Source: an uncultured Candidatus Saccharibacteria bacterium | Lineage (GTDB): Bacteria; Patescibacteriota; Saccharimonadia; Saccharimonadales; Saccharimonadaceae | Assembly (NCBI GenBank): GCA_947367565.1 | Contig: CANBEI010000002.1 | Span: forward strand, 1 to 60,888 | Length of the DNA stretch: 60,888 bases | Direction of reading: 5' to 3' | Shown here: positions 1 through 60,888 of the stretch, piece by piece | How positions within the stretch are numbered: the stretch's first letter is position 1 | Layout: each line of letters starts with the position of its first letter | Translations under genes and position numbers: made by a program | The notes under the pieces: model-generated | Seen by the model: the letters and a program-made list of their open reading frames with translations, nothing else | What the model was told of the DNA's origin: nothing | Databases searched by the model: none

Positions 1-76
1 TGGTGGTTCCGGGCGGACTTGAACCGTCGACACAAGGCTCTTCAGGCCTCTGCTCTACCAACTGAGCTACAGAACC
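1..76 (-). tRNA. tRNA-Phe (GAA)
   Basis: The reverse strand folds as a full cloverleaf. Acceptor GGTTCTG pairs with CGGAACC, the D arm is GCTC/GAGC, the anticodon loop CTGAAGA gives GAA, the T loop is TTCAAGT, and the CCA end is encoded at bases 1-3. The gene reaches the edge of the window but looks complete. Confidence 0.95.
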
Positions 77-109
77 ATACGTATCTATATTAACACACTT
101 TTTGCGAAA

Positions 110-137
110 AATAAACCCCCAGTCGGAACTGCGGGTT
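110..137 (-). terminator. Terminator of the phosphoribosyltransferase gene
   Basis: On the minus strand a GC-rich hairpin (ACCCGCAGT, loop, ACTGGGGGT) is followed by TTTATTTTT, just after the phosphoribosyltransferase stop codon and before tRNA-Phe. Confidence 0.75.
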
Positions 138-150
138 CATTTCATGGCCT

Positions 151-720
151 TTAGACTTCCGGAGGCTCATCGTAATGCAACACGGCGCGGACCGGAACAT
201 CTGCCGGAAGCTGAAAAACGCCGCGCGGTAAATAATCCAGACTAGCCAAAGCCGCAACGCCGACCAACCGAGCACCAGTGCGCTGAACGAGACGGACGAG
301 TGCCGCGGTCATTTGACCAGTAGCGATAACGCTATTAACGATTAATACTTTGCCATTGGCATCCAATTTGTTGGCTTCAAGCTCCAGCGTACGCGTTCCC
401 TGCGGGGACTGATAATCCTCGCAAATCGCCCGATAAGGTAAACCACTCAACCGGCGAGCCAAGACAATCTCCTTGCCATACTCCAGCGCCAGAGGCTGGG
501 CGTAAAGCCAAGCGTCGCCTTCGACAGCCACGATCGTGTCGTAGCTATGCTTATCAAAGAGTGATTTCATGCCGTCGTAAGCGGTCATGTTGACCATATG
601 CGGCGATACCACTGACGCGATATCCAGATAACCAACGCCAGGTTGCTCTCCTTTGAAGAAGCGAATATGTTTCAATAACAACTCTTCCTGACATTTCATA
701 AATTTTTGATGCGTATTCAT
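151..720 (-). CDS. Phosphoribosyltransferase (Apt/Xpt-like)
   Basis: A 189-residue protein of the type I phosphoribosyltransferase fold, which joins a nucleobase to PRPP in salvage. The PRPP-loop region near residues 130-145 reads VLIVNSVIATGQMTAAL; the family norm is VLIVDDVLATGGT, so both acidic residues are replaced. This may mean altered substrate use or a regulatory role. An upstream hydrophobic beta strand (YDTIVAVEG) fits the fold. I chose the ATG at 720 because GAGAAAGGGGG precedes it; the ATG at 744 is an alternative. A long structured leader precedes the gene. Purine salvage is likely, but the exact base is not determinable. Confidence 0.75.
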   Translation of the reverse strand: MNTHQKFMKCQEELLLKHIRFFKGEQPGVGYLDIASVVSPHMVNMTAYDGMKSLFDKHSYDTIVAVEGDAWLYAQPLALEYGKEIVLARRLSGLPYRAICEDYQSPQGTRTLELEANKLDANGKVLIVNSVIATGQMTAALVRLVQRTGARLVGVAALASLDYLPRGVFQLPADVPVRAVLHYDEPPEV

Positions 721-866
721 GCGCGCATCCCCCTTTCTCCTCATTGATTTATCAGAGATAAATCAATGGCTAATTAGCCATGTCAAGGTGCGATCAGTGT
801 TTAAACTGACATTTTCACCTCGCATGACGACACTGCAGATAATGCCTCTATTTGAGGTTCATTATC
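721..866 (-). promoter_or_regulatory. Structured 5' leader of the phosphoribosyltransferase gene
   Basis: Between the predicted start of transcription (about 860) and the start codon lie about 140 bases with successive hairpins. These are GATAATG..CATTATC with an inner CCTC/GAGG, AGGTG..CACCT with an inner TCAGT/ACTGA, the palindrome GGCTAATTAGCC, and an 11-bp stem ATTGATTTATC/GATAAATCAAT directly before the ribosome binding site. No U-run follows the stems, so control of translation is more likely than termination. I do not recognise a known riboswitch. Confidence 0.55.
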
Positions 867-895
867 AGTATAGCACAGGTTACGATTTTTGTCAA
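867..895 (-). promoter_or_regulatory. Promoter of the phosphoribosyltransferase gene
   Basis: On the minus strand TTGACA (895-890) and TATACT (872-867) are separated by 17 bp. The -35 overlaps the stop codon of the DUF2335 gene. Confidence 0.75.
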
Positions 896-1374
896 GCCTC
901 TCGGCGACCATACAATGTAACGCCGACCAAAGCCGCGGCGTCAATCAAAACCAGAATTAACCCAGCAAGTTCGCTACCCTGGAGAAGGAGCATACCGCCG
1001 AGAATACCGATACTAAGCGCAAGGACGAAGCCGATAATGGTGCGAACTTGGCCGGATTTAATCTCGGATTCCAGGGCGCGGCGCTCAGTCGCCTCGCGAT
1101 GAGCGGCGCGCTGCTCGGCGAGTTCAATCAAGCGTTCCGCGCCTCCGGGGACGATTTTCTCGTACTTGGCCAACTCCTCTGGAGAGGGGAGGCCCTCGAA
1201 GATTGAACTCGCCGAAGGCGCTGGAGACGTCGCAGGCATCGCAGATGCCGGAGAAGTCGGAGGCGCCACGGGCGGCGTGGCTTCAGCCGACGCCGCCCGA
1301 CTTGCGCCCGAGCGCTCCGCGGTAACGGATTTAGATCTAGTTTTGGTAGTGGACTGCGTTTTTGGGCTAGCCAT
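892..1374 (-). CDS. DUF2335-family membrane protein
   Basis: 160 residues. The first 60 are low-complexity Ala/Pro/Ser/Thr. Next comes a conserved segment of the DUF2335 type (ELAKYEKIVPGGAERLIELAEQ, residues about 67-88), then a helix, then two membrane segments near residues 110-130 and 135-152. DUF2335 proteins are small predicted membrane proteins of unknown role. The gene runs in the same direction as glyA upstream and the phosphoribosyltransferase downstream, but has its own intergenic region with a palindrome. Confidence 0.7.
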   Translation of the reverse strand: MASPKTQSTTKTRSKSVTAERSGASRAASAEATPPVAPPTSPASAMPATSPAPSASSIFEGLPSPEELAKYEKIVPGGAERLIELAEQRAAHREATERRALESEIKSGQVRTIIGFVLALSIGILGGMLLLQGSELAGLILVLIDAAALVGVTLYGRREA

Positions 1375-1453
1375 GAATTTTCTCCTCTATGTCTGCTTGC
1401 GCGGATGCCCACCACCGCTAGTTAATATTCTAAATACCCACCATTTTGCTTTT

Positions 1454-1474
1454 TTGCATTACATTGTAATGCAA
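1454..1474. promoter_or_regulatory. Palindrome between glyA and the DUF2335 gene
   Basis: TTGCATTACA and TGTAATGCAA form 10-bp arms around one central base. There is no U-run downstream in the direction of the genes, so it reads as an operator rather than a terminator. Confidence 0.5.
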
Positions 1475-1489
1475 ATGTCTTACATACTA

Positions 1490-2815
1490 TTACTGCTTAA
1501 TCCCTGGCACTGGGAACTTGAGCGCAGTACTGCGGACTTCGTCGCGGATACCGTCGAGCTCAGCGCGATGCGCGTTTAGCCCATCTTCATTCCCTGCTGC
1601 GACGCAAATGTCAACAACACGGCGCATCCAATCGGCGAGCTGTCGCATTTCTGCTACACCTAGACCACGAGTGGTCATGGCCGGCGTGCCAAGTCGGACG
1701 CCAGATGGGCGGAAAGCTGCACCCTTGTCGCCCGGTAGAGAGTTCGCATTCAAAGTCAAGCCGACCTGATCGAGCGCCGCCTCGTAAAACTTGCCGTCAA
1801 TGCCGAAGCTGCCCTGGACATTGACGAGGATAAGATGATTCTCAGTGCCACCGCCTTGAAGCTGGAAGCCGCGCTCCATCAGCTCCGCCGCGAGAACTTT
1901 GGCATTCTCAACGATATTCTTCGCATAAACCTGGAACTCCGGCTGCAAATCTTCGCCGAACGCCACGGCCTTCGCCGCAATAACATGTTCCAACGGACCA
2001 CCTTGCGTACCCGGGAAGACCGCACGGTCAATCAAAGTCGGGATATTTTCTAGCGTATGCTCGCACTTTTTCAGAGGATTGCCAACCTTGCCCATGCTCA
2101 TGATCAAGCCGCCGCGCGGACCACGCAAGGTCTTATGCGTCGTACTAGTCATGACATGAAAACCATGCTCAAGCGGGTTCGGATGAACGCCGCCTGCAAT
2201 CAAGCCGGCGACGTGCGCCATGTCGGCCATGAGCAAAACCTCTTCGCCAGATTCCTGGCTTACCGCCTCGGCAATCCGCTTCACGCGGTCAAAATCTGGC
2301 AATTTCATGAAAGCGGAATAGCCGACCAAGATTAGCTTCGGATGATGTTCATGGGCAAGTTTTTCCAGTTCGTCATAATCAATATCACCCTCCGCCGTCA
2401 CACCATAGCCGACGAAATTATAAATTTTCGCACTGCGAGTTACTGGAGAGCCGTGTGTCAAATGACCGCCGGCCGGGAGCGCCATAGCGAGGACGGTGTC
2501 ACCAGGTTGTAGCCAGGCGAAATAAACCGCTTCGTTCGCATTCGCACCGGAGTGGGGCTGAACGTTCGCATGATCAGCATGGAAAAGCTGTTTCGCGCGG
2601 TCGATGGCAAGATTCTCAATCTGGTCGACGTTTTCATTGCCGCCATAGTAACGCTTGCCGGGGTAGCCCTCGCTGTATTTATTAGTCAAAACTGAGCCCA
2701 TGGCCTCCAAAACTGCGCTAGAGACGTAATTTTCGCTCGGGATAAGTTCCAAGCCTTCGCTCTGGCGACGCTGTTCGGCAGCAATAATCTCAAAAACTGG
2801 ATCTTTAGTTGTCAT
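1490..2815 (-). CDS. glyA: Serine hydroxymethyltransferase
   Basis: 441 residues, the usual bacterial length. GlyA interconverts serine and glycine while loading tetrahydrofolate with a one-carbon unit, using pyridoxal phosphate. Diagnostic segments are NKYSEGYPGKRYYGG (residues about 45-60), PHSGANANEAVYFAWL (about 92-107), the ADMAHVAGL segment (about 197-205), and the PLP-lysine motif STTHKTLRGPRGG (about 224-236). The start is preceded by TAGGAGG. It is a stand-alone gene divergent from the CHAP-fold gene. I see no missing residues. Confidence 0.97.
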   Translation of the reverse strand: MTTKDPVFEIIAAEQRRQSEGLELIPSENYVSSAVLEAMGSVLTNKYSEGYPGKRYYGGNENVDQIENLAIDRAKQLFHADHANVQPHSGANANEAVYFAWLQPGDTVLAMALPAGGHLTHGSPVTRSAKIYNFVGYGVTAEGDIDYDELEKLAHEHHPKLILVGYSAFMKLPDFDRVKRIAEAVSQESGEEVLLMADMAHVAGLIAGGVHPNPLEHGFHVMTSTTHKTLRGPRGGLIMSMGKVGNPLKKCEHTLENIPTLIDRAVFPGTQGGPLEHVIAAKAVAFGEDLQPEFQVYAKNIVENAKVLAAELMERGFQLQGGGTENHLILVNVQGSFGIDGKFYEAALDQVGLTLNANSLPGDKGAAFRPSGVRLGTPAMTTRGLGVAEMRQLADWMRRVVDICVAAGNEDGLNAHRAELDGIRDEVRSTALKFPVPGIKQ

Positions 2816-2921
2816 GTAATACCTCCTAGATTGAATAAACGATTATCTGAGATTATGCTGAATTAAACCATACCTATACTCCACTTTTCTCCATTGTATC
2901 ATGACTAGGCAAGGCGAGAAG

Positions 2922-2953
2922 TCTTGACTTTTTAGATAATGTGTGCTATAATG
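2922..2953 (+). promoter_or_regulatory. Promoter of the CHAP-fold gene
   Basis: TTGACT and TATAAT are spaced by 17 bp. Transcription would begin near 2960, so the ATG at 2939 in the ORF track cannot be the start. Confidence 0.75.
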
Positions 2954-3004
2954 AGGGTATGCCTCGGTTTTTGCCGGGCAAAATTCATTTTTGGAGGTGG
3001 TTCT

Positions 3005-3607
3005 TTGAGATTTTGGACAATTTTAGCAACTATTTTTGCGCGTTTTTCGGTACGTCGATGGAACAGAATTCGAGTACTGAGAGGGATTTGTCGGGCGGCT
3101 TATCGGGGGATGGGTAATGTCTATACTGCCAGGCGGCAGAAAAGGCATCCGGGGATGGCTTATTACGGAGCGGTGGTAAACACCTATCCGTGGCCGTATT
3201 CTGACCCAAAATTTGCGCCTTGGGAAGAAGATGACCAGCCAGAGACTTATACGCTAGTGTCGGATCCGGCGGGATTTGTCATCCGGCGGAGCACGAGCTA
3301 TGTCGCTTGGAAAATCTTCGAGTTGACGGGGCGGTGGCCACTGGAGCGCGGCGATGAAGGCAAAATCTTTCACGCTAAGTATTGGCAGGAATTCCTGGCG
3401 CTGAACGGATACGACAAGGTCGTAGCGCAGCCGGAGCACGGACGTCATTATGTCGGAATTATCCCCAGCGAGGGAGAATTCGGTCAGGTAATTTGGTTCG
3501 AGGGCGTATATAAGGGGAAGTATATGACATCAACATATCTGAACTTCCGGCACGAGCTTGATCGAAATTACGATATTAGCCAGGCAACATGGATAGAAAT
3601 TTACTGA
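3005..3607 (+). CDS. CHAP-fold protein lacking catalytic Cys and His
   Basis: About 200 residues from a TTG start preceded by GGAGGTGG. A basic, partly hydrophobic N-terminus (RFWTILATIFARFS) is followed by a C-terminal domain that matches the pattern of CHAP peptidoglycan amidases. Those usually carry a Cys in RxCTSYVAWK and a His in GHVxxVE. Here the first motif reads RRSTSYVAWK (Cys to Ser) and the second FGQVIWFEGV (His to Gln). Both catalytic residues are gone while the fold-type sequence is kept, suggesting a binding or structural role at the cell surface. The gene has its own promoter and terminator. Confidence 0.65.
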   Translation: MRFWTILATIFARFSVRRWNRIRVLRGICRAAYRGMGNVYTARRQKRHPGMAYYGAVVNTYPWPYSDPKFAPWEEDDQPETYTLVSDPAGFVIRRSTSYVAWKIFELTGRWPLERGDEGKIFHAKYWQEFLALNGYDKVVAQPEHGRHYVGIIPSEGEFGQVIWFEGVYKGKYMTSTYLNFRHELDRNYDISQATWIEIY

Positions 3608-3610
3608 AAG

Positions 3611-3645
3611 GAATGAGAGCTGGCCGCAGGGTTGGCTCTTTTTAT
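3611..3645 (+). terminator. Terminator of the CHAP-fold gene
   Basis: AGAGCTGGCC, a short loop, then GGTTGGCTCT followed by TTTTTAT, just after the stop codon. Confidence 0.75.
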
Positions 3646-3692
3646 GGCGGAAGGTTTTATTTTTAGCGGGATTGTGTTATACTGGTGGCAAT

Positions 3693-3768
3693 GGGGACGT
3701 AGCTCATCTGGTAGAGCGCGGCATTCGCATTGCCGAGGTGGTCGGTTCGAGTCCGATCGTCTCCACCA
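3693..3768 (+). tRNA. tRNA-Ala (CGC), island insertion site
   Basis: Acceptor GGGGACG pairs with CGTCTCC, the D arm is GCTC/GAGC, the anticodon loop TTCGCAT gives CGC, the T loop is TTCGAGT, and CCA is encoded. A -10-like TTATACT precedes it. The serine recombinase frame runs into this gene from the other side, so the left end of the island sits at the tRNA 3' end. Confidence 0.95.
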
Positions 3769-5458
3769 GAAAGTCCTTACTCCAACCTTTACCAAAAAAA
3801 TTTGATAAACGGTTGGGTATTGAAGATAGGAAGCTCGTGAGCAAATGCTCACGAGCTTCTGCGTTGTTTACAGAGTTATATTGCGCCACCTCGTCTTTCA
3901 TCGGCTCTACCAGCATGGTAAACGGTTCGGCAAATTCCGCCGTTACTTTTCCATCAGAGCCAATTAGCAGACGTTTAAAAATTGCCTGGTTCATCATTTT
4001 CTTCATATTGTCATTAGCCATGCGGTAAGTCCTGCCGCAGTTCTCAATCAGGTCTATCGCATCGCCAAGCCTCTCTATGACTGTAGTAAAGGTATAATCA
4101 TAGGCTTTTATCTGGTGGTCAATCGCAGCAAGCTGTTTCGCAATTTTCTGCTGCTCGCTCTTAAGTAGGTCGAGAGGGATAGCGTCATTATAATGCGCCT
4201 CCAATAACTTTTTACGCTGACGTTCCAGCTTATCTTTTTCCCTGCGCAGTCCATCCAATTCCGTAGCATATTTATCCTGTTCAGCTTCTATATTCTGCCT
4301 TAGCCATTTTTCCAGATAGTCAGCGATTTTGGGTGGAAAAGAATAGCTGTCATAAATCTGCTCCACCTGCCGCTCAACGTCCGCTATTAAGACTGCCCGT
4401 TGCTTACAGTCTGTACGTTTGTTATGCCGTCCGCCGCAAATGAAGTACGGATAGCGAACTCCGGTATGGGATTTTGTGTAGTTGATAAACATCCGTGACC
4501 CGCAGTTTTTGCAGAAAACGCTGCCTTTTAAAAAATGAGGGTGTTCACGAGTGCGTTCGCCATTGATGTGAGACAACAGAATATCCTGTACTTGCTGCCA
4601 GGTATCGGGATTCACAAGAGCCGGGTGTGTTCCATCATACTCTACTCCTTGGTATGACACAATGCCTTTGTAGTAAGGGTTTATCAATACGCTGTTCAGG
4701 GATTTTTTGTTAATAGGCTGTGACGGAATTCTGGGTGTGGCGCGGGTAGTTAAACCGCAGGCTGCCAGATGTTCCGCTAAATCCTGCACCGTCCAATTAC
4801 CAGTGGCATATTCCTCAAACGCCAGCTTAATGAGCGGCGCACGCTCTTCGTCCAGTATTACGGTACGTTCCTCACGCCCCTTCTCGTCCATGCGTCGGAT
4901 ATTGAGATAGCCAAGCGGTGCGCGGCTGGGCGTGCCACCGCTCTTCACTTTCTCATTCAGCCCCTTTTTGACCTCATTTGCCAGGTTCTGTGAGTAAAAT
5001 TCTGCGATGGAACTCATGATGCCGTGGAGCAGCATTCCTGCTGGAGTGTCATCAATGCTTTCCGAGGCGGATACCAGTTGAACTCCGCATTCACGCAAAG
5101 TGCGCATAATATCAACGTCATCACCGCGATTCCGAGCGAGACGGTCAACCTTATGTACAATTACGTAGTCTACCCTGTCAGCATTTTCCTTCACGTATTC
5201 CAGCATTTTCTGGAGTTCCGGGCGGTCAGCGGATTTAGCGGAAGTTCCCCGGTCAACAAACTCCTTACCGACCATTGCGCCCATGGAGAGCGCCTTTTTC
5301 TTGTTGGCTTCCCGCTGGGCTGGAATAGAAAAACCCTCATCAGCACCGCCGCCACGCTCTGCCTGCCCGCGCGTAGAGACACGGAGGTAGGACACGGCGA
5401 ATTTGGGCGTCATAGCGTTTGCCAGTGATTCCATGGGGTTACTAGCTGCATAGTCCAT
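3704..5458 (-). CDS. Large serine recombinase (island integrase)
   Basis: About 584 residues from the ATG after AAAGGAGAGG; the ORF track extends 18 codons upstream. The N-terminal resolvase domain carries the catalytic serine in VSYLRVSTRG (about 22-31), DRGTSAKSADRPELQKML and VHKVDRLARN. A Recombinase domain follows with GTPSRAPLGYLNIRR, then a zinc ribbon with CKNCG and a later Cys pair, and a Lys/Glu-rich coiled coil. Members cut and rejoin DNA via a phosphoserine link to integrate elements. The last 20 or so codons (from VETIGLEPTTSAMRMPR) are antisense to tRNA-Ala, so the natural C-terminus depends on what flanks the integrated copy. It probably moves this island. Confidence 0.9.
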   Translation of the reverse strand: MDYAASNPMESLANAMTPKFAVSYLRVSTRGQAERGGGADEGFSIPAQREANKKKALSMGAMVGKEFVDRGTSAKSADRPELQKMLEYVKENADRVDYVIVHKVDRLARNRGDDVDIMRTLRECGVQLVSASESIDDTPAGMLLHGIMSSIAEFYSQNLANEVKKGLNEKVKSGGTPSRAPLGYLNIRRMDEKGREERTVILDEERAPLIKLAFEEYATGNWTVQDLAEHLAACGLTTRATPRIPSQPINKKSLNSVLINPYYKGIVSYQGVEYDGTHPALVNPDTWQQVQDILLSHINGERTREHPHFLKGSVFCKNCGSRMFINYTKSHTGVRYPYFICGGRHNKRTDCKQRAVLIADVERQVEQIYDSYSFPPKIADYLEKWLRQNIEAEQDKYATELDGLRREKDKLERQRKKLLEAHYNDAIPLDLLKSEQQKIAKQLAAIDHQIKAYDYTFTTVIERLGDAIDLIENCGRTYRMANDNMKKMMNQAIFKRLLIGSDGKVTAEFAEPFTMLVEPMKDEVAQYNSVNNAEAREHLLTSFLSSIPNRLSNFFGKGWSKDFLVETIGLEPTTSAMRMPRSTR

Positions 5459-20418: not shown

Positions 20419-20662
20419 TGCTCAGAGTAACACCAAATATCATGATTTACCACTGGCTTTTGTCCGTAGCGGGCACGTTAACCTAGACTTCGGTTTCGCT
20501 CTCGACGTCGGTGAGGGTGGACTTAGTCGATCGCGTACGGCCAGCAATTATCCTACCTACGCCTACTACCTGTACTTCGCTCCTACGGGCGTCGCCTCGT
20601 CAGGCAGCGACAACCGCGATCACGGTATCCCCCTCCGCTGCCTCTACCCAGGTAGTGCCTAA
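20405..20662 (+). pseudogene. Lectin-like variable C-terminal fragment A (no start)
   Basis: An open frame of about 85 codons begins after TAG with no start codon or ribosome binding site. It encodes LPLAFVRSGHVNLDFG, WSRT-type positions (here SRSRTAS), ..AYYLYFAPTG and PLRCLYPGSA-stop. This is the C-terminal core of a C-type-lectin/FGE-like fold whose last about 70 residues vary widely among homologues. It shares the box TGGCTTTTGTCCGTAGCG and the end CTCCGCTGCCTCTACCCAGG with fragment B. It sits alone between convergent genes and looks like a donor or remnant of a variable region. Confidence 0.65.
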
Positions 20663-24651: not shown

Positions 24652-24960
24652 TTAGGCACTACCTGGGTAGAGGCAGCGGAGGGAGAAACCACCATAGCGA
24701 ATGTAGTAGTCTGACGGATTAACATACGTAGGATGCATGCCCAAGTAGTAGGCGTGGGTAGACGATTTGGGGGTACGTGACCAAGCACGACCATACTCAC
24801 CAACGTTGCTAACATAACCATAGCTGAGGTAGACATACCCGCTACGGACAAAAGCCAATGGTAATTGTACTATGGTGGTGGCGCCGGAGGTACTGATTAT
24901 ATTGGAGCATTCATCTCCCTTGTCAATTTTCGCCAGACCATGACTGCTATTTTTGGTGAT
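24652..24960 (-). pseudogene. Lectin-like variable C-terminal fragment B (no start)
   Basis: The frame opens right after TGA and runs about 102 codons without a start: ..NSSHGLAKIDKGDECSN.., then LPLAFVRSGYVYLSYG, GRAWSRTPKSSTHAYYLG and FSLRCLYPGSA. It shares the 18-base box TGGCTTTTGTCCGTAGCG with A and C, and the 3' end CTCCGCTGCCTCTACCCAGG plus TAGTGCCTAATGGAG with A. It lies tail to tail with the small recombinase gene. The variable positions (Y, H, D, I, G) coincide with Asn codons in fragment C. Confidence 0.65.
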
Positions 24961-25329: not shown

Positions 25330-25831
25330 ATGTATTGGCAGTAGCAATTTCTATAAGCGGCAATATAATCTATGTTAGAATTGAATCGTGGATAGTTTTG
25401 TCCATGGAAACTACTGCCAGCCATTGAGATCAGGCTCCGACTGCCAAAGGTTTTCTAGTTCAAAGATCGTGAAGTTTCTCTTCCTATTATTTCATAGGAA
25501 AACATGGAAGACTGGGATTTAGCTACAGCTATGGCTGCGGCTAAAAATAGCAAACTTCTTCACCTGCGCTTGTTCTGGCTTTTGTCCGTAGCGATGCTAT
25601 CAATGTTAACGATGGTAAGATGTGGAATCTGGGCAACTGGGGTAACGGCTGGTCGCGTACGGCTTTATCATCTACCAACGCCTACAACCTTGCGTTTAAT
25701 CCTACAGAGGTCTACCCATCAAACAACAACAACCGTTGGAACGGTCTCCCCCTCCGCTGAAGTTTTGGCCGGTTTCGGTGCCGATCTTGGAGAAAAGCCC
25801 CTGCTAACTGTAGCGGGGGCTATAATTTTAT
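25330..25831 (+). ncRNA. Candidate template RNA with AAC-rich lectin fragment C
   Basis: A non-coding stretch with TATAAT at 25364, a perfect long-range pair GGCAGTAG..CTACTGCC (25337-25418), then the box TGGCTTTTGTCCGTAGCG (25576), and a strong terminator (AGCCCCTGCTA/TAGCGGGGGCT, 25793-25830). The 184-base core reads in one frame as lectin C-terminus (AFVRSDAINVND.., WSRTALSSTNAYNLAF). AAC/AAT codons stand at exactly the positions that vary in A and B, including four AAC in a row. The frame lacks a start and breaks at CTCCGCTGA. This is how template repeats of diversity-generating retroelements look. Confidence 0.5.
25576..25759 (+). repeat. Template-repeat-like core of fragment C
   Basis: Shares its first 18 bases (TGGCTTTTGTCCGTAGCG) and its end (CCCTCCGCTG) with fragments A and B. 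Between them it differs mostly at, but not only at, its adenines. A and B are therefore relatives and not direct products of this exact template. Confidence 0.55.
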
Positions 25832-59277: not shown

Positions 59278-60588
59278 ATGAGTAAACTAGAAAATATCGT
59301 AAGTCTATGTAAAAGAAGGGGGTTTATATTTCCGGGATCCGACGTTTATGGCGGTATGGCCGGTACATGGGATTACGGTCCTCTAGGCACGATCTTGAAA
59401 CGTAATATGATGGATGCGTGGTGGAATTATTGGGTCGACCAGCGCGATGACATGTATGGGGTGGATGCAGCGATTATTATGAATCCGCAAGTTTGGGAGG
59501 CGTCGGGACATGTCGCGACGTTCGCTGATCCGTTAGTCGAGTGTAAAGAATGCCACGGGCGATTCCGGGCAGACAAATTAGTCGACGGGGCGACGGAGAG
59601 TATTACGACCGAGGAGTTTCTGAAAGCGGACGTGAAATGCCCGACCTGCGGGAAGAAGAATTGGGGTGAGATTCGGAAGTTTAACATGATGTTTAAGACG
59701 CATGTCGGCCCGATTGACGATGATTCAGGCATTGCGTATCTCCGACCAGAGACGGCGCAAGGGATTTTTACGAACTTCAAAAATGTCGTCGATACGATTT
59801 ATCCAGATATGCCGTTTGGGATTGCGCAACAGGGGAAAGCCTTCCGAAATGAGATTTCGCCACGGGATTTCATCTTGCGCGACCGCGAATGCAGCCAGAT
59901 GGAGATTGAGTATTTTGTGAAACCAGACGATTGGGAGCGAGCATTCGAGGAACTGCGCGCGGGTCAGCACGACTTCTTGGAGAATGTAATCGGCTTGCCG
60001 GCAAGTGCGATCCATGAATTGGACGTGCCAGAAGCGGACCGGGCGCATTATTCAAAGCGGACGATTGACTTTATGTTTGATTATCCAAACGGCGAAGAAG
60101 AGCTGATGGGGTTAGCGTATCGGACAGACTTCGACCTGAGCAACATCCAGCGAGCAAGTGGGAAAAATATGGAGTATCGCGACAAGGTGACGGGTGAGAC
60201 GTTTGTGCCGCACGTGATCGAACCTTCGATCGGAGTGGAGCGGTTGTTCCTCGCGATCTTGAGTAATGCGTATACAGAGGAGGAAGGCCGGATCGTATTG
60301 AAATTACCTGCTGGGTTAGCACCATATAAGTACTGCGTGAGTCCGTTGCTAAAGAATAAGCCGGAATTGGTGGAGCGAGCGAAAGAAGTTTATGAGACAT
60401 TGAAGAAGAAATACACGTTCGTGACTTGGGATGATTCGGGCAACATCGGGAAACGCTATAAAAAACAGGACGAAATCGGAACACCGAAGTGTGTCGTCGT
60501 GGACTTTGAGGGGCTGGAAGATGGAACCGTAACCGTACGTGACCGGGATACGACGGAGCAGGTGCGGGTGAAGGTGGAAGAGTTATAA
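59278..60588 (+). CDS. glyS: Glycyl-tRNA synthetase, dimeric type
   Basis: 436 residues, class II. MSKLENIVSLCKRRGFIFPGSDVYGGMAGTWDYGPLG is the N-terminal signature of the alpha2 enzyme; motif 2 lies in IAQQGKAFRNEISPRDFILRDRECSQMEIEYF and motif 3 in IEPSIGVERLFLAIL, with a C-terminal anticodon-binding domain (VSPLLKNKPELVERAKEVYETL ... IGKRYKKQDEIGTPKCVVVDFE). ECKECHGRF and CPTCGKK form a zinc site. It charges tRNA-Gly. Slightly shorter than most, but no motif is missing. Confidence 0.97.
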   Translation: MSKLENIVSLCKRRGFIFPGSDVYGGMAGTWDYGPLGTILKRNMMDAWWNYWVDQRDDMYGVDAAIIMNPQVWEASGHVATFADPLVECKECHGRFRADKLVDGATESITTEEFLKADVKCPTCGKKNWGEIRKFNMMFKTHVGPIDDDSGIAYLRPETAQGIFTNFKNVVDTIYPDMPFGIAQQGKAFRNEISPRDFILRDRECSQMEIEYFVKPDDWERAFEELRAGQHDFLENVIGLPASAIHELDVPEADRAHYSKRTIDFMFDYPNGEEELMGLAYRTDFDLSNIQRASGKNMEYRDKVTGETFVPHVIEPSIGVERLFLAILSNAYTEEEGRIVLKLPAGLAPYKYCVSPLLKNKPELVERAKEVYETLKKKYTFVTWDDSGNIGKRYKKQDEIGTPKCVVVDFEGLEDGTVTVRDRDTTEQVRVKVEEL

Positions 60589-60590
60589 AG

Positions 60591-60773
60591 AAGGATAGGT
60601 GGAGTAGTTAATTCTGGAATGGGAGCCTCGCGCAGGGGCTTCCTTTTGGATTTTGCTCTAGAGAGCCGCGAAAGTTCCGGAGGCGTAACTCCGCTGACTT
60701 TCGCTAAAATCCAAAAAGGAATCCTCTGGCTTAGCTCTTTTATATTCCAGAATTAACTACTCCACCTATCCTT
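60591..60773. repeat. 183-bp palindrome with perfect 30-bp arms
   Basis: 60591-60620 and 60744-60773 are exact reverse complements (AAGGATAGGTGGAGTAGTTA...). Inside are further nested pairs: TTCCTTTTGGATTTT with AAAATCCAAAAAGGAA, GCTCTAGAGAGC, CGAAAGT with ACTTTCG, and CGGAG with CTCCG. No coding frame. It begins two bases after the glyS stop. Confidence 0.9.
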
Positions 60774-60817
60774 CCCTACTGTTTTTTCACATATACTCGT
60801 AAGACGACATGAATAAC

Positions 60818-60847
60818 CATCCACCGGCTTAGCCGGTGGTTTTTCTC
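60818..60847 (+). terminator. Terminator downstream of glyS
   Basis: CCACCGGC, TTA, GCCGGTGG, then TTTTTCT. Confidence 0.8.
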
Positions 60848-60888
60848 TGGACGGGCAGTAGCCCTCTTATTACTAGCAGCCACCAGAG

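Follow-up and report, generated by a model that had tools for sequence, protein, structure and literature searches.

A long palindrome lies immediately downstream of glyS

The window analysed here comprises 60,888 nucleotides and corresponds to the entire contig C2 of a Ca. Saccharibacteria MAG (914,031 bp in 70 contigs, 93% complete). The glyS gene, encoding glycine--tRNA ligase (59278..60588, + strand; ORF with an NCBIfam match of 2.5e-171), carries at its 3′ end a palindromic element of 185 bp (60590..60774, + strand), delimited from the sequence and its fold, that starts immediately 3′ of the stop codon. Its left outer arm, GAAGGATAGGTGGAGTAGTTAATTCTGGAAT (60590..60620, + strand), is the exact reverse complement of the right outer arm (60744..60774, + strand), which gives perfect arms of 31 bp; the left arm sequence is specific to this locus and absent from the other copies described below. 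The conserved core (60611..60753, + strand) matched covariance model R1 with 129 bits (E 1.6e-29), this core being itself one of the training sequences of the model. Within it, GGAATGGGAGCCTCGCGCAGGGG (60616..60638, + strand) provides the left half of the conserved, fixed G.U pairs and of an internal loop, and CGAAAGTTCC-GGAGGCGTAACTCC-GCTGACTTTCG (60669..60704, + strand) forms a conserved apical stem-loop region. The interior folds into a second long stem and the apical stem-loop, both paired. It is imperfect in a patterned manner, with asymmetric bulges and a mini-hairpin on the left arm only, and these asymmetries were seen again in other copies of the family. A sequence-only reading had described a near-complete palindrome with nested internal stems and 30-bp arms at 60591-60773; both the palindrome and its nested stems proved real, the arms being one base pair longer.

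The minimum free energy of the palindrome as RNA was -114.7 kcal/mol, compared to -55.7 +/- 4.4 kcal/mol in shuffled sequences (n=200; z = -13.5), and none of the 200 shuffles folded as well. With a stem many times longer than a terminator needs, as the earlier reading had pointed out, conserved internal loops and multiple copies, the element is no ordinary terminator. No match to a known Rfam RNA was obtained above the gathering score; the palindrome gave only sub-threshold matches, e.g. to microRNA precursors, and those can be obtained from any long hairpin. A TTTTTT tract a few nucleotides 3′ of the right arm (60782..60787, + strand) could represent a terminator tail. A separate, ordinary terminator hairpin, CCACCGGCTTAGCCGGTGG followed by a T run (60821..60844, + strand), lies within a repeat common to the ends of contigs C1 and C24, and a consensus terminator scan of the region called only an internal sub-hairpin of the palindrome and this separate hairpin at 60821. 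The last 77 bp of the window (60812-60888) are identical to the ends of C1 and C24, and contig C2 stops inside this repeat, 114 bp 3′ of the palindrome. The assembly broke at this point because the terminator-bearing 77-bp repeat is multi-copy.

The nearest relatives of this glyS, with a top identity of 84%, were found in MAGs of Ca. Saccharibacteria, and many of these derive from ruminant guts. Most of their glyS 3′ ends presented short terminators or nothing, and they were too diverged to provide a clean empty glyS site. Long hairpins of other sequence were located directly 3′ of glyS in two Saccharibacteria from sheep and goat gut MAGs (L153 4326-4491 and L172 4362-4531), which may belong to additional, diverged families occupying the same position.

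The palindrome belongs to a dispersed family with a conserved core

A genome search with the glyS palindrome retrieved nine further places, one of which was its own reverse strand, and related queries gave more. According to searches with stretches around the matches, the genome contains eight complete copies recognised by model R1 (contigs C2, C3, C5, C20, C36, C37, C38 and C42), half copies whose loop coincides with a contig end (C32, C33, C37, C38, C46, C54 and C55) and one truncated copy (C7). Since contig ends in this assembly overlap by 77 bp, the half copies must be counted with care. The family numbers about a dozen copies, with the glyS palindrome among them. All of them have the inner core in common but not the 30-bp arms. 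The arms, originally proposed as the search query, are unique to the locus, and a search with them would have overlooked the family, whose conserved part is the inner core.

The alignment of the eight complete cores contained 56 consensus pairs; in 33 of these, at least one sequence carried changes on both sides of the pair. Bulges and loops remained fixed while the stem sequence turned over, and the outer arms differed at each locus yet kept their complementarity. Element size across the family ranged from about 185 to 340 bp. Many full copies carried TTTTATAATC...GATTATAAAA-like ends; the glyS copy lacked the TTTTATAATC ends as well as the tail of the other copies. A second small module was present in the tail of most copies (e.g. 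C7:33908-33975) and consisted of a AACTTGTA..TACAAGTT hairpin together with CTCTGTTG and TTATAATCC. This module also occurred without the large palindrome, on C43 in this genome and in the groES-groEL spacer of G014 and G024.

Among 150 genomes from 55 sampled genera, 13 (including the one under study) presented R1 matches, all of them from one genus, and no match was found in the other 54 genera. Strong homologues were detected in four further genomes (G013, G024, G041 and G040) and weaker matches in eight more of the same genus. Antisense readings of true copies, used as a control, scored 30-38 bits with R1; matches near that level therefore prove only a long hairpin, and those at or below about 40 bits were not countable as homologues on score alone. 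The weaker matches shared the internal-loop motifs 5′ TTC.CGCC / 3′ GG.TT and 5′ TTTT..ACG / 3′ CTAAAA and form a second subfamily. A phage origin was set aside, the exact core pattern being unmatched in viral contigs. Searches of open-access text retrieved no description of the family, which is apparently undescribed.

Most copies are located at gene ends, and the family shows signs of mobility

Considering ORFs of at least 100 aa from crude calls, the nearest left ORF was on the same strand, and thus read towards the hairpin, in 23 out of the 29 copies with a left neighbour, and its end commonly lay 16-60 bp before the hairpin core. Several copies sat between convergent genes. Exceptions to the gene-end rule included two antisense copies between groES and groEL. 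A terminator or 3′-end role is plausible, yet it would leave the spread of the hairpins unexplained. The bias towards gene 3′ ends would likewise be compatible with a non-mobile element that acts in cis as RNA.

In G024, four copies shared 92-99% identity across 256-337 bp, beyond which their left flanks were unrelated. Similarly, pairs of copies at different loci of the genome under study (C33/C46, C5/C7, C5/C54 and C38/C55) presented 91-97% identity, specifically 96.5% over 144 bp for C33/C46 and 92% for each of the two C5 pairs. The groES-groEL spacer offered a comparison of orthologous sites. It measured 12 nt in this genome and 9-19 nt in G030, G033, G016 and G011, 84 nt in G014 and 92 nt in G024, where only the small-hairpin tail and no large palindrome was present, and 302 nt in G013, which carried the large palindrome. 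At C9:12830, the outer arms of the C38a copy were found with the centre deleted, as expected for an unstable palindrome. We take these observations together to reflect insertion and a subsequent deletion of the kind typical of palindromes; mobility is indicated by the near-identical copies found at unrelated loci and by the occupied and empty states of the groES-groEL spacer. For the glyS copy, insertion is not directly proven, since it lacks the typical ends and tail.

No target-site duplication was delimited at the copies, and no transposase could be tied to them. A Y1 transposase (PF01797) was not found in this genome (G000), G013 or G040; G024 contained fragments and G041 one. Mobilisation by a RAYT/IS605 (Y1/REP) enzyme was thus unsupported for a genome without Y1 transposase. 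An origin as a retron or DRT2 product received no support: the only reverse transcriptase in the assembly was a DRT2-like antiviral enzyme (L134 1231-2583, contig C21), and searches found no family hairpin on that contig.

Mismatches in the arms suggest possible upkeep at the DNA level

In the outer arms, mismatches comprised 36 G.U and 41 A.C, with no strand bias. The inner part showed a G.U over A.C excess of 60:15, mostly from fixed positions, and the variable pairs presented no clear G.U excess. Because the inner excess lies mostly at fixed positions, the G.U bias does not prove an RNA role, and a reading of RNA selection from this bias was rejected. The mismatch pattern would point to DNA-level upkeep, e.g. 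arm-to-arm template switching, over RNA-stem selection alone. Published work describes template switching as both a maker and a keeper of hairpins (PMC8794818).

DGR cassettes adjoin complete palindromes in this genome

A DGR variable-region cassette was located 49-111 bp to the right of seven out of seven complete copies with a readable right flank in this genome. These cassettes were roughly 60 aa long; five pointed at the hairpin and two away from it. Given about 79 cassettes in 914 kb, the chance of finding one there is ~1% per copy. The window copy had no cassette within the 114 bp of right flank that remained. This association was not visible to the sequence-only reading. Cassettes occurred at about 79 places in this genome, many without a recognisable N-terminal gene. 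Examples in the window lie at 20447-20644 (+ strand), 24670-24864 (- strand) and 25572-25757 (+ strand), the last being template-repeat-like.

About 22 Asn-rich cassette copies resembled template repeats (TRs), nearly all with the common 3′ flank GTGCCGATCTTT. In one pair of TR and variable region (VR), differences affected 18 out of 49 A and 0 out of 140 other sites, and in a second pair 9 out of 45 A and 1 out of 147 other sites. Judged by these adenine-confined differences, the cassettes can be taken as genuine DGR products. A DGR reverse transcriptase was not found in this assembly. In the hairpin-bearing relative G013, a compact DGR with reverse transcriptase, TR and VR was present on L305 (G013:C16) at 1-3837. 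Of the genomes searched within the genus, only three lacked the cassette module; the others scored between 1 and more than 40 copies. Outside the genus, it occurred in just two genomes. The majority of cassettes had no palindrome. No adjoining cassette was seen beside most subfamily-2 copies, G013:C7, G013:C1 and G041, and one G024 copy was flanked by tandem cassettes.

Interpretation of the palindrome family

The glyS palindrome is probably one copy of a palindromic repeat that is restricted to a genus, dispersed and conserved in its structure, in other words a MITE-like non-autonomous mobile element, which possibly doubles as a bidirectional terminator. Three options had been considered initially, one of them a cruciform boundary. 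The small non-autonomous mobile element is the best supported, by its multiple copies, their near-identity at unrelated loci and the occupied and empty sites, and a large structured 3′ end is compatible with the location of most copies at the 3′ side of genes. Because the stem sequence turns over around bulges and loops that stay fixed, the mobilising enzyme would recognise the folded strand, as a hairpin or cruciform. Template switching during replication, selection for the fold, or both would preserve the complementarity of the long locus-specific arms. After insertion, the hairpin would probably act as a bidirectional terminator or 3′-end structure, so that insertion behind genes would be tolerated.

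A non-mobile origin, in which a giant cis-acting RNA structure evolved at gene ends as a bidirectional terminator or 3′-UTR stability hairpin, would account for the position of most copies shortly 3′ of a stop codon, several of them between convergent genes, for the T6 tract after the window copy and for the fixed G.U pairs in the core. We consider it unlikely, since two copies occupy the groES-groEL spacer in antisense, near-identical copies occupy unrelated loci, the fold far exceeds termination needs, the glyS genes of relatives mostly have short terminators or nothing and variable pairs lack a clear G.U excess. The sequence-only reading had also raised read fold-back during assembly. Long palindromes do break several contigs at the loop; however, the arm imperfections are patterned, and the same design recurs with different, imperfect arms in several independently assembled genomes, which leaves such an artefact scarcely credible.

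The neighbouring cassettes suggest other roles. The palindrome might help DGR retrohoming, its cruciform marking the adjoining VR as target, in agreement with the cassettes beside all seven readable copies and with the homing of BPP-1, which requires a hairpin downstream of the VR whose stem structure, and not its sequence, counts (PMC3240598). The small AACTTGTA..TACAAGTT hairpin between VR and palindrome in most copies would also fit a DGR target, yet, being nearer to the VR, it suits the known role better than the palindrome does. Moreover, two of the seven VRs point away, leaving the palindrome upstream of them, most subfamily-2 copies and those of G013:C7, G013:C1 and G041 have no cassette, and most cassettes have no palindrome, which makes a helper function improbable. 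A single-strand recombination site comparable to an integron attC, an IS200/IS605 end or a REP end, carrying DGR cassettes as cargo, would be consistent with the fixed bulges and asymmetries in an otherwise free stem, with the attachment of cassettes in both orientations and with the tandem cassettes beside one G024 copy. This genome has no Y1 transposase, however, attC core boxes were not at constant positions on inspection and the palindrome is far longer than attC; we regard such a site as very unlikely. Only tentatively, and with doubt, do we consider that the hairpin could be the recognition body of a cassette system, in which hairpin, small hairpin and a DGR VR slot would move jointly to gene ends and the slot would then be overwritten from many dispersed template repeats. 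If true, the genome would hold a genome-wide reservoir of hypervariable binding domains.

Little repetitive DNA is expected in the reduced genomes of Saccharibacteria. A genus-specific, structure-recognised palindrome near dozens of DGR cassettes suggests that these ultrasmall episymbionts actively spread or host hypervariable domains, and this link is the aspect most deserving follow-up. In addition, the copies constitute a natural series, with different stems and the same fold at orthologous and new sites, that could serve to test selection against template switching in the upkeep of long hairpins.

Comparison with known systems

Like REP/BIME/REPIN elements with TnpA-REP (RAYT), the family consists of extragenic palindromes with fixed mismatches and free stems, often behind genes (PMC8266576, PMC3116915, PMC3733652). 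REPs are 20-40 bp long, bear a tag (GTAG or CGTC) and are associated with a Y1 tyrosine transposase (PMC8266576, PMC3116915, PMC3733652), whereas the palindromes measure about 185 bp or more, in a genome without this transposase, and no GTAG/CGTC foot was present at the base of the 185-bp glyS hairpin. The target hairpin or cruciform of the BPP-1 DGR is also an inverted repeat near the VR end in which structure prevails over stem sequence; in the phage, a GRNA tetraloop caps a GC-rich stem of 7-10 bp, and the hairpin lies 4-34 bp from the VR (PMC3240598). In contrast, the palindrome is many times larger, lies 49-111 bp away and can be on the wrong side of the VR. With Rho-independent terminators, it shares a hairpin directly 3′ of a stop codon and, in the window copy, a nearby T run; it differs from them in its stem, many times over-long, its conserved internal loops and its membership of a multi-copy family.

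Like the family, ERIC/IRU and Correia (NEMIS) MITEs are dispersed, with low-to-medium copy numbers, and probably non-autonomous; they can be transcribed into long hairpins. These and other bacterial MITEs are, like the palindrome family, short, non-coding, imperfect and intergenic palindromes (reviewed in PMC2229807 and PMC10969869). Compared to these elements, the family described here is longer, its stems turn over with pairing kept and its arms differ at each locus; it is also tied to DGR cassettes in this genome and, in our sample, belongs to one Saccharibacteria genus only.
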